From contig JAJZUW010000014.1 of NCBI GenBank assembly GCA_021845925.1, positions 1 to 48,213 on the forward strand: DNA of 48,213 bases. Reading direction: 5' to 3'. Origin of the DNA: Pseudomonadota bacterium (GTDB taxonomy: Bacteria; Pseudomonadota; Gammaproteobacteria; Burkholderiales; Sulfuriferulaceae). The stretch's first letter is position 1, and each line of letters opens with the position of its first letter. Shown piece by piece: positions 9,603 through 12,432 of the stretch. The notes below the pieces were generated by a model. The model was not told the DNA's origin, ran no database searches, and saw only the letters and a program-made list of their open reading frames with translations. Both the position numbers and the translations under genes were made by a program.

Positions 9603-10871
9603 TTATTTCAACCGCTTGATTCCCATCACATTCAGAACAAATTTTTCGTAGACCGGGTCTGTCTCGCCTTTTTTCATCTTGCGGATGAAATATTTCTCGA
9701 AGGCCACCTTGGCCAGGTGAACCCATTTGCCTTCCTTGAACCAGTTGGTGTTGCGTGGCGGAATCTGCGGCAGGGCGACAAATGCGGCGCCGGTGTCACC
9801 AAAGTCGGCAAGGCAGATGGCGTTCCAGGTCGGCTTTTCCTTCGGCTCATGGCCATCAAGCAGGGCACGGATATTCAGTGCGGCCGCCGTGACCATGGAT
9901 TCGATCATGTAGCCGGTTTTGGGTGTGCCGGTCGGCACCGGTGTCGGTTCAACCGGCGGGATGGCAACACAGACGCCGACTGAAAAGATATTCTGGAATT
10001 TTGGATTGCGCTGATAGGGATCGATGACAATGAAACCGCGCGGATTGGTGAGTCCTTCAATGCCAAACACCGCATCAATGCCTTTGAAAGCTGGTAACAT
10101 CATCGAATAGTTGAATGGCAGTTCGTGTTCCTTCCTGACGCTGCCATCGTCGTTGTGTTCGGCAACAAACATCTTGCCGGCATCCACTTTGGTGACTTTG
10201 GCATTGCAGATCCATTTGATGTGCCGGTCGCGCATGATGGATTCCATCAACCCGCGCGAATCACCCACGCCGCCCAGGCCAAGATGACCAATGTAGGGCT
10301 CGGAAGTCACGAAGGTCATCGGAACCTTGTCACGAATTTTGCGACGCCGCAGATCGGTGTCCATAATCATGGCGTATTCGTAGGCAGGACCAAAGCACGA
10401 TGCCCCCTGTACGGCACCCACCACGACAGGGCCTGGCTGCTCGCAGAACGTCTCCCAGGCGCTGGCCGATTGTTCAGCATGATCAATATGGCAGACCGAC
10501 TGTGTATTGCCGTCCGGGCCGAGGCCGGGAATTTCATCAAATGCCAGTTTGGGTCCGGTTGCAATAACCAGGTAGTCGTACTCGACACTTTCGCCATTCA
10601 CCAGTTCGATGCGATTCTGATCCGGATGCAGCCGTTTCGCGCCTTGGCTGATGAAATGGATTCCCCGCTTTTCAAGGTAAGGCGCGATGGGAAAGGTAAT
10701 TTCGTCACGTTCGCGCCATTTGACCGCAGCCCATGGATTGGACGGCGTGAACTGGAAATAGTCGGTGTTGGAAATGACGGTGATTTTGTCTTCTTTGCGA
10801 GCAGCTTCCTTCATTTCGTAGGCCATCGGCAATCCGCCGATACCTGCGCCTAGAATGACAATGTGGGCCAT
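9603..10871 (-). CDS. sqr: Sulfide:quinone oxidoreductase
   Basis: This FAD enzyme oxidises sulfide to sulfane sulfur or polysulfide and reduces membrane quinone. Its 422 residues start with the dinucleotide-binding motif VILGAGIGGLPMAYEM. Three redox cysteines of the Acidithiobacillus ferrooxidans type are present: Cys127 (TQSVCHIDHAE), Cys159 (GASCFGPAYEYAM) and Cys353 (TWNAICLADFGD). The stretches EPYIGHLGLGGVGDS, PVPTGTPKTGYMIESMV and WVHLAKVAFEKYFIRKMK also match that enzyme closely from memory. It is a peripheral inner-membrane protein held by the amphipathic C-terminus. Start ATG 10871 has aaagga about eight bases upstream. A sigma-54 promoter at 10929-10944 and palindromes further upstream suggest activation by the divergent FisR-like protein. 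It differs from flavocytochrome c, which lacks this cysteine set. Confidence 0.93.
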   Translation of the reverse strand: MAHIVILGAGIGGLPMAYEMKEAARKEDKITVISNTDYFQFTPSNPWAAVKWRERDEITFPIAPYLEKRGIHFISQGAKRLHPDQNRIELVNGESVEYDYLVIATGPKLAFDEIPGLGPDGNTQSVCHIDHAEQSASAWETFCEQPGPVVVGAVQGASCFGPAYEYAMIMDTDLRRRKIRDKVPMTFVTSEPYIGHLGLGGVGDSRGLMESIMRDRHIKWICNAKVTKVDAGKMFVAEHNDDGSVRKEHELPFNYSMMLPAFKGIDAVFGIEGLTNPRGFIVIDPYQRNPKFQNIFSVGVCVAIPPVEPTPVPTGTPKTGYMIESMVTAAALNIRALLDGHEPKEKPTWNAICLADFGDTGAAFVALPQIPPRNTNWFKEGKWVHLAKVAFEKYFIRKMKKGETDPVYEKFVLNVMGIKRLK

Positions 10872-10928
10872 GTACAGTTTCCTTTCAGGGTTACTCGTTG
10901 TTGGATCCCGGCCGGTAGCCTGTTCTAT

Positions 10929-10944
10929 AGCACATGGCGTGCCA
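10929..10944 (-). promoter_or_regulatory. Sigma-54 promoter of sqr (-24/-12)
   Basis: On the minus strand the sequence is TGGCACG-CCAT-GTGCT against the consensus TGGCACG-N4-TTGCW, one mismatch. The invariant GG (10943-10942) and GC (10931-10930) are exactly ten bases apart. Transcription would start near 10918, leaving a leader of about 47 bases before the sqr ATG. An AT-rich stretch at 10951-10985, suitable for bending, lies between this promoter and the operators. Confidence 0.75.
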
Positions 10945-11004
10945 TGTTTATATTCTATTGTTTTTTAATTGAAATTTATTTTCTGTCGGCTGATTTAGCC
11001 AAAC

Positions 11005-11014
11005 TGTCATGACA
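11005..11014. promoter_or_regulatory. Palindromic operator 1 (TGTCATGACA), probable activator site
   Basis: This perfect 10-base palindrome is centred about 91 bases upstream of the predicted sqr start point. The same core recurs with its centre 44 bases away, about four helical turns. That distance is normal for enhancer sites of sigma-54 activators. Confidence 0.65.
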
Positions 11015-11046
11015 AAATGGCGCAGATCACCTAAGATGTGACAGGT

Positions 11047-11060
11047 ATTGTCATGACAAT
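11047..11060. promoter_or_regulatory. Palindromic operator 2 (ATTGTCATGACAAT)
   Basis: This perfect 14-base palindrome shares its core with operator 1. It covers the ATG at 11053 of the FisR-like gene, so binding could both activate sqr (about 135 bases upstream of its start point) and block the regulator's own expression. Confidence 0.65.
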
Positions 11061-12432
11061 TTGGCATGGGGGTGTTGTGCAGGACGATCTGAATCCGGAA
11101 GTGGTGTCCCTGGTCGAGGCGCAAACCGTGCCTTTTGTGCTGATTGACCGTTCCTACCGCATTGTCAGTGCCAATCAGTCGTATTGCGAAAGTTTCGGTG
11201 TGACCCGGGAGCAGATCATCGGCAAAACCTGCCATGAAGTGTCTCACCGGTCTTCGGTTCCCTGTCATCAGAATGGCGAGGATTGTCCGCACCAGGCCGT
11301 GTTTGGCACTGGCAAGCCGCACGAGGTCATTCACACCCATTTCGATCAGTTGCACCGGCCCGAATACGCCCGGATTCGTGGCGTTCCGGTGCATGGCAGG
11401 CACGAGGTTCGCTATCTGGGCGAGGCGGTAATGCATGTTACCGATCCGGATGGCATCAGCTGTGACGACATGCGCATGGTTGGCAGTTCCCCGGCGTTTC
11501 TGCATTGTGTCGAAATGCTGGCGCGTGCCGGAGAATCCGAAGCATCGGTTTTGCTGATGGGTGAAAGTGGCGTAGGCAAGGAACTGGCAGCCCAGTACCT
11601 GCACAAGCGTTCCGGCCGGCGCGACAAGCCTTTTCTGGCCATCAACTGTGCGGCCATTCCGGAAAACATGTTTGAAGACGAGCTGTTTGGTCACGAGCGC
11701 GGTGCATTTACCGGCAGCATCGGGCGCAAGCAGGGGTTGTTCGAGCTGGCGGATGGCGGCACGCTGTTTCTCGATGAGGTTGGCGAAATTCCGCTGACCA
11801 TGCAGGCCAAACTGCTGCGCATTCTGGAAAGTGGCGAATTCCGCCGGCTTGGCGGCACCGAAGTGCTGCGTTCGGATGTGCGCATCGTGGCAGCCACCAA
11901 TCGTGACCTGCTGGCTCTGGCTGAAGCCGGGCGGTACCGGCTCGATCTGTATTACCGCATTGCCGGCATCGATGTGCATTTGCCGGCCCTGCGCGAGCGC
12001 CGAACTGATATTCCGGCCCTGGCCGATTTCATGCTGCGCAGGATGGCCGGATCTGGCGGAAAACGTTGCAAGCTCAGCGAAGCGGCCATCAACAAGTTGC
12101 TGGATTACGCGTTTCCGGGCAATGTCAGGGAATTGCGCAACATTCTGGCCAAGGCGGCGGCCATTTGCCGGAGTCATGTGATCGGTGCGGAATGCATCAT
12201 GCTGGCCAATCCGTCCGCAGGCCAGTCCCTGGTCCGTCCGGAACGCATGTCTGCCAGTGTGCCGGCCGAGCCAGACACGCCAGTCTCGCAAAGTTCAATT
12301 GCCGAAATGGAAGCCGGCTATATTGCGCAGATGCTGCAGGCCAATAACGGCCACAGGCGCAATGTTGCTGATATACTCGGCATCAGCGAACGGACGCTGT
12401 ATCGCAAACTCAAACGTTACGGTCTGGTCTGA
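11053..12432 (+). CDS. fisR: FisR-like sigma-54-dependent activator (PAS-like sensor, AAA+, Fis HTH)
   Basis: This enhancer-binding protein has a PAS-like N-terminal sensor, an AAA+ domain and a Fis-type helix-turn-helix ([24 protein letters not shown] at the C-terminus). The AAA+ domain carries Walker A GESGVGKE, the sigma-54 contact loop GAFTGS and Walker [11 protein letters not shown]. The sensor has Cys-x10-Cys-x6-Cys (KTCHEVS...[10 protein letters not shown]), the spacing of Cys53/64/71 of Cupriavidus pinatubonensis FisR, which reacts with sulfane sulfur to turn on sulfide-oxidation genes. It is divergent from sqr with shared operators. The start is uncertain: ATG 11053 lies inside operator 2, while GTG 11077, preceded by ggggg, would place the cysteines at 52, 63 and 70, almost the FisR numbering. 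An upstream GTG at 11038 is also in frame. Confidence 0.85.

Follow-up and report, generated by a model that had tools for sequence, protein, structure and literature searches.

The sqr/fisR gap and its regulator

The window, meaning the whole stretch of 48,213 nucleotides analysed here, carries a gene for sulfide:quinone oxidoreductase (sqr), apparently a one-gene transcription unit, and divergent from it a gene for a FisR-like sigma-54 activator (fisR). The gap between the two is 205 bp long when the GTG at 11077 is taken as the fisR start, which revises the 180 bases given in a first-pass annotation of the same DNA. The genes and the elements between them are the following.

9603..10871, minus strand: sqr, sulfide:quinone oxidoreductase (best solved relatives 3sz0/3t31, E 2e-170; Pfam Pyr_redox_2)
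10930..10944, minus strand: sigma-54 promoter TGGCACGCCATGTGC, directed towards sqr (score 20/21, 0/300 shuffles)
10951..10963, minus strand: IHF-like site AAACAATAGAATA (two mismatches to WATCAANNNNTTR; 32 bp away from the -12 G)
11005..11021, plus strand: operator 1 (outer), TGTCATGACA-AAA-TGGC, present in 11 of the 15 family loci that have upstream DNA
11009..11037, plus strand: predicted sigma-70-type fisR promoter, ATGACA (-35, within operator 1), 17 bp, TAAGAT (-10)
11049..11065, plus strand: operator 2 (inner), TGTCATGACA-ATT-TGGC, in the predicted fisR 5' leader, present in all 16 family loci
11077..12432, plus strand: FisR-like sigma-54 activator, GTG start 11077 (Pfam; PAS-like sensor, AAA+, Fis-type HTH)

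The promoter facing sqr, TGGCACGCCATGTGC at 10944-10930 of the minus strand, was already recognised in the first-pass annotation; it has the spacing GG-N10-GC and fits 10 of the 11 letters of the sigma-54 consensus TGGCACG-N4-TTGC. On our own ad hoc weights, which have a maximum of 21, it scores 20, a value not reached when the gap was put through 300 dinucleotide shuffles. The sqr transcript is predicted to start near 10918. Exact copies of TGTCATGACA stand at 11005-11014 and 11049-11058, and the second is contained in a perfect 14-mer, ATTGTCATGACAAT, at 11047-11060. The two palindromes, 44 bases apart and one of them extended, had been described in the same terms on first inspection, and the distances of about 91 and 135 bases then given from the sqr start follow from these coordinates with a start near 10918.

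The regulator has matches above cut-off to PF00158 (AAA+ sigma-54 interaction) and PF02954 (Fis-type HTH), and it is linked to a divergent sqr behind a sigma-54 site, as in 15 of 15 family gaps. Three cysteines of its sensor domain, C52, C63 and C70 (C-x10-C-x6-C), are invariant in 19 aligned sequences; in FisR the cysteines are numbered C53, C64 and C71. This spacing fits the three-cysteine sensing of FisR, which is described in excerpts of PMC9774590 as sensing reactive sulfur via three conserved cysteines. The sigma-54 loop reads GAFTGS in the window versus GAFTGC in 15 family orthologs, and the departure from GAFTGA counts against reading the gap as a FisR circuit. Across the FisR branch (window, L008-L022, L039-L053) the last residue of the loop is cysteine (GAFTGC or GSFTGC) in 29 of the 31 members compared, the window and L051 having serine; none of 14 more distant homologues and none of six paralogs has cysteine there. 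The loop-end cysteine is a possible further redox-sensitive residue.

Comparable systems are known from other bacteria. Li et al. 2017 are reportedly the authors of the original description of FisR. In the excerpts of PMC9774590 and PMC8148161, FisR of Cupriavidus pinatubonensis JMP134 is a sigma-54 activator of sulfide-oxidising genes, and the window regulator may be likened to it, by description, in three-cysteine sensing of reactive sulfur and in sigma-54 activation. In Acinetobacter baumannii, FisR (A1S_1707) is encoded divergently from a sulfide-induced operon with a predicted sigma-54 promoter, an arrangement like that of the window, except that the operon comprises pdo, sqr, tauE and hsd whereas sqr stands alone here; the excerpted account gives no operator (PMC7315123). 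TspR of Acidithiobacillus caldus, which has the site TGTCCCAAATGGGACA, likewise combines sigma-54-dependent control of sulfur oxidation with a TGTC...GACA palindrome; it differs in being a two-component response regulator, in its 16-bp site with a wider centre, and in acting on sox genes (PMC6335251, in excerpt).

Conservation of the operators and their geometry

The family set consisted of 18 genomes, of Sulfuriferula and allied metagenome genomes, and a protein search found a fisR orthologue in 16 of them (64-77% identity, plus the window itself). G008 and G015 yielded weaker matches only, and their closest sqr pieces start at or next to a contig end. Operator 2 is present in all 16 loci, 12 times exactly and four times with one mismatch, and operator 1 in 11 of the 15 loci with enough upstream DNA (nine exact, two with two mismatches), L008 being left out of this count since it is cut by a contig end. 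The palindrome is thus kept upstream of sqr in family members with the divergent regulator; its absence there would, by the first-pass annotation's own terms, have refuted that reading. Operator 1 is not recognisable in four of the 15 loci, L017-L020, which counts against a FisR circuit.

The conserved unit is longer than the palindrome. In the 25 sites that have one mismatch or none, the letters at +13 to +16 are T in 24, G in 25, G or T in 22 and C in 25. Each operator therefore carries a third half-site, which makes a repeated unit of 17 bp, TGTCATGACA-N3-TG[T/G]C, that was absent from the earlier description. A search with TGTCATGACANNNTGKCA, allowing one mismatch, gave 37 rows in the 18 genomes, while the reversed control gave two; a manual count puts 26 of the 37 at fisR. 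At three fisR loci, including the window, one operator matches on its other side too.

The geometry is conserved along with the sequence. The best sigma-54 match towards sqr has GG-N10-GC spacing in 15 of 15 family gaps and scores 17-20 of 21, values reached by 0-5 of 300 shuffles per locus. Measured from the -12 G, the centre of operator 1 is at 76-79 bp in each of the 11 loci with this operator, and that of operator 2 is at 119-122 bp in 13 of 15. The spacing between the two operators is 42-44 bp, or about four helical turns. Gap lengths range over 176-247 bp, yet these operator-to-promoter distances are nearly fixed. L017 and L018, in which the centre of operator 2 is at 99 bp, count against a FisR circuit.

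A further element probably has a constant position in the stretch that separates the operators from the promoter. Over 15 family loci the IHF consensus, WATCAANNNNTTR, averages 2.4 mismatches when placed 32 bp upstream of the -12 G; the means elsewhere are 3.8-6.6 at the plus-strand offsets scanned and 3.6-7.8 on the minus strand. At this offset nine of the 15 loci have two mismatches or fewer, four of them none, and L017 and L018 have a site with one mismatch at offset 31. The match is poor in L010, L012, L013 and L014, again a point against a FisR circuit, and the two mismatches in the window make its own site weak. The AT-rich bendable stretch of the first-pass annotation can be read more specifically as an IHF-like site of conserved position, degenerate in the window itself. 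A gene for IHF-alpha and rpoN were found in the window's genome.

Outside the family, the best 80 of 206 relatives (public titles) were taken, 69 of them outside the family by our assignment. Of these 69 loci, 23 have the exact 10-mer in the 300 bp preceding fisR. There are 27 matches in the 20,354 bp upstream of fisR versus two in the other 478,965 bp of the same loci, an enrichment directly upstream of fisR of about 318-fold. When 60 palindromes were formed from the permuted half-site, the other 59 each occurred in at most one locus, versus 23 for TGTCATGACA, and in a de novo k-mer count TGTCATGACA was the top 10-mer, in 21 of 65 non-redundant loci versus 0.07 in shuffles. The third half-site recurs in several outside loci as well (L096, L099-L101, L153, L157, L164). 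The exact 10-mer is missing from 46 of the 69, which counts against a FisR circuit.

In a class sample of 29 loci, fetched out of 39 matches at E 1e-110, the exact 10-mer stands within 200 bp in five (two of 15 closer and three of 14 distant homologues), and the 7-base core TGTCATG or its complement in 19 (nine of 15 closer, 10 of 14 more distant). Divergent sqr-like matches outside the family were examined in 22 of 23 cases, L103 with a 23% match being left out. Three of the 22 yielded no sqr start, and 18 of the other 19 have a sigma-54 score of at least 19.5; the half-site was not found in four of these 19. Operator-like sites lie at about 79 and about 120 bp in L096, L099 and L102, as in the family. 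The palindrome also accompanies fisR in L100, L101, L104 and L105, loci whose fetched DNA showed no sqr.

Several arrangements outside the family are recorded here as side observations. In L152 and L155 (Acidithiobacillus) two copies of the site abut each other as TGTCATGACATGTCATGACA, at a distance of about 245-255 bp upstream from the fisR match. In L056, L057, L058, L060, L065 and L066 an sqr-like gene apparently precedes fisR in tandem, with operator-like sites, judged by eye, between the two. The search for FisR on plasmids gave one record, from Pseudoalteromonas (39.5% identity), with TGTCA half-sites and the 10-mer absent.

That the palindromes are functionless products of chance is hardly credible, even though a single 10-mer is not rare, with six copies in the window's 2.34 Mb genome. 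Exact TGTCATGACA occurs 71 times in the 18 family genomes (about 45 Mb), and the 50 copies beyond the sqr/fisR gaps correspond to about 1.1 per Mb, close to the 0.95 per Mb at which a random 10-mer would occur, as chance would predict; they outnumber the nine matches of a reversed-letter control in the same genomes. Against chance stand the other 21 of the 71, which fall within the short gaps, and the enrichment outside the family, and the conservation already contradicts it. Two exact 10-mers 22-46 bp apart were found in two of 369 genomes of the class, the window's own and G142, whose pair has no adjoining fisR.

Proposed regulation of sqr and of fisR

The presence, conservation and geometry of the operators and their association with fisR are direct observations, and we read the gap, with considerable confidence, as a FisR-type sulfide-response circuit. 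The regulator would sense persulfide or polysulfide through its three cysteines and bind the two 17-bp operators, on nearly the same helix face, whose distances upstream from the sqr start are about 90 and 133 bp. With the help of a bend near -40, which is probably made by IHF, its ATP hydrolysis would open the sigma-54 polymerase at the sqr promoter. The suggestion of the first-pass annotation that the palindrome may be the binding site of this FisR branch is supported by conservation and by the association with fisR.

The same operators lie over the presumed fisR promoter. In nine of 11 family loci the best -10-like hexamer (TAAGAT in the window) lies 17 or 18 bp past operator 1, a spacing that would make ATGACA of operator 1 the fisR -35; the summed score exceeds that of all 2000 shuffles, a significance overstated by the relatedness of the loci. 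Operator 2 would then lie just past the predicted fisR start point, which is expected near 11044. An ATG within operator 2 was tried as the fisR start codon and rejected: it is in frame in five of 16 family loci (manual count), which is the chance rate, and L008, L010 and L012 begin further downstream after a GGAGG-like run, as judged by eye. The GTG at 11077, aligned by eye with the ATG of L008, is the best-placed start. Feedback had originally been proposed because operator 2 seemed to cover a start codon; that premise falls away, and feedback is still likely because operator 1 overlaps the predicted fisR -35. Bound FisR would probably limit its own synthesis, since the operators also occupy the fisR promoter, at the -35 and just past the start point, and autorepression by FisR is thus likely on the layout. 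Divergent control of this kind is known for NorR-type systems, in which several enhancer sites serve both to activate a sigma-54 promoter and to restrain the gene of the regulator itself; NorR differs from the window regulator in sensing nitric oxide and in its site sequence and sensor domain.

This overlap makes it conceivable that the operators serve mainly for fisR autorepression and that sqr is activated independently of them. The position of operator 1 over the predicted -35 and of operator 2 in the leader would suit such an arrangement, as would several distant loci with tandem sqr-like and fisR genes, where the sites, seen by eye, lie between the genes and not upstream of sqr. We nevertheless consider it improbable; against it stand the nearly fixed distance from operators to the -12 box in family gaps of varying length and the recurrence of both distances in L096, L099 and L102 outside the family. 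Even less probable is binding by another regulator, such as the FisR-like paralog of a cytochrome bd cluster. This paralog shares the cysteine spacing and resembles the window regulator in its HTH, and the half-site TGTCA occurs in its control region at 3.5 per 200 bp versus 0.39 expected; the 10-mer, however, is found in none of six paralog control regions, the operators are kept in family genomes without the paralog, which has been found in only seven of 18, and 23 of 69 unrelated loci have the 10-mer beside fisR.

The part of this picture already known comprises FisR itself, its sigma-54 dependence, the divergent arrangement and sulfide induction (PMC7315123 and reviews, in excerpt). A FisR operator was not found in the literature searched, which excluded the original FisR description and so a text that may contain one, and among 20 published texts containing the letters TGTCATGACA none has a title on sulfide regulation. 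The operator definition is probably new, and it is testable. On balance we favour, with some reserve, a wider proposal: that TGTCATGACA-N3-TG[T/G]C, with its three half-sites, is the operator of this FisR branch, serving as sigma-54 enhancer and as fisR repressor site; that its occurrences outline a small sulfide regulon, made up of sqr, rhodanese and flavocytochrome c sulfide dehydrogenase genes and readable directly from genomes; and that a paralog using the same half-site at other spacing runs an operon of cytochrome bd, a persulfide dioxygenase-like protein, rhodanese and sqr. With an operator that is conserved and keeps a fixed geometry to its promoter, FisR regulons could be predicted in sulfur oxidisers known from metagenomes only, and footprinting and structural studies would have a short stretch of DNA to work on. 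The layout also predicts a feedback that would limit the sulfide response.

Other candidate targets and the FisR-like paralog

A large regulon defined by the exact 10-mer was considered and rejected, as 50 of the 71 sites in the 18 genomes are found elsewhere than at fisR, with a density close to random. In the window's own genome none of the four other sites (L003-L006) has a sigma-54 score of at least 18 nearby. Of the 50 non-fisR sites in family genomes 22 were fetched, and 17 of these lack such a score. The remaining five represent four loci. In G007 (L224/L227) the operator and TGGCACGCAACATGC precede a short gene and then a rhodanese gene, with an exact IHF consensus, found by eye, 31 bp from the -12 G; the rhodanese promoters to which the first-pass annotation had directed attention thus yield an operator with a sigma-54 site in one relative. 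In G014 (L219/L228) two operators and TGGTATGTAACTTGC precede a gene for a flavocytochrome c sulfide dehydrogenase flavoprotein, in G016 (L226) TGGCATGGAAGTTGC precedes a gene for a CZB-domain protein, and in G008 (L075) a sigma-54 score of 19.5 has no clear target. At random positions a score of 20 is reached in 1% and of 18 in 10.6% of 1100 trials, so that each case alone is suggestive, short of proof.

A class-wide scan for an operator with a sigma-54 site was used for leads only: 12 of 369 genomes matched, versus two reversed-control matches and a chance estimate of about four, and six of the 11 non-window matches lie inside an open frame of at least 150 codons. Among these leads, TGTCATGACA with a sigma-54 site precedes a porin-like gene in L237 (G339) and L238 (G123), which belong to one other family. 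Operator and sigma-54 site precede multihaem cytochrome c-like genes in L242 (G353) and L243 (G142), and, in L241 (G163), outside the family, an FCSD-like flavoprotein gene divergent from the FisR relative L050.

The FisR-like paralog (41-44% identity, seven of 18 family genomes) is divergent from a cytochrome bd cluster, a neighbourhood checked in G000 and G016 only (L191, G000:C5:1-16000; L192, G016:C3:138000-153000). In G016 the cyd cluster is followed by YbgE, a metallo-beta-lactamase-fold protein that is a candidate persulfide dioxygenase, a globin, a rhodanese and a second sqr. In all six loci examined, L029 being left out, a sigma-54 site that is nearly perfect (20-21 of 21) points away from the paralog, and the control region carries TGTCA half-sites at a different spacing.
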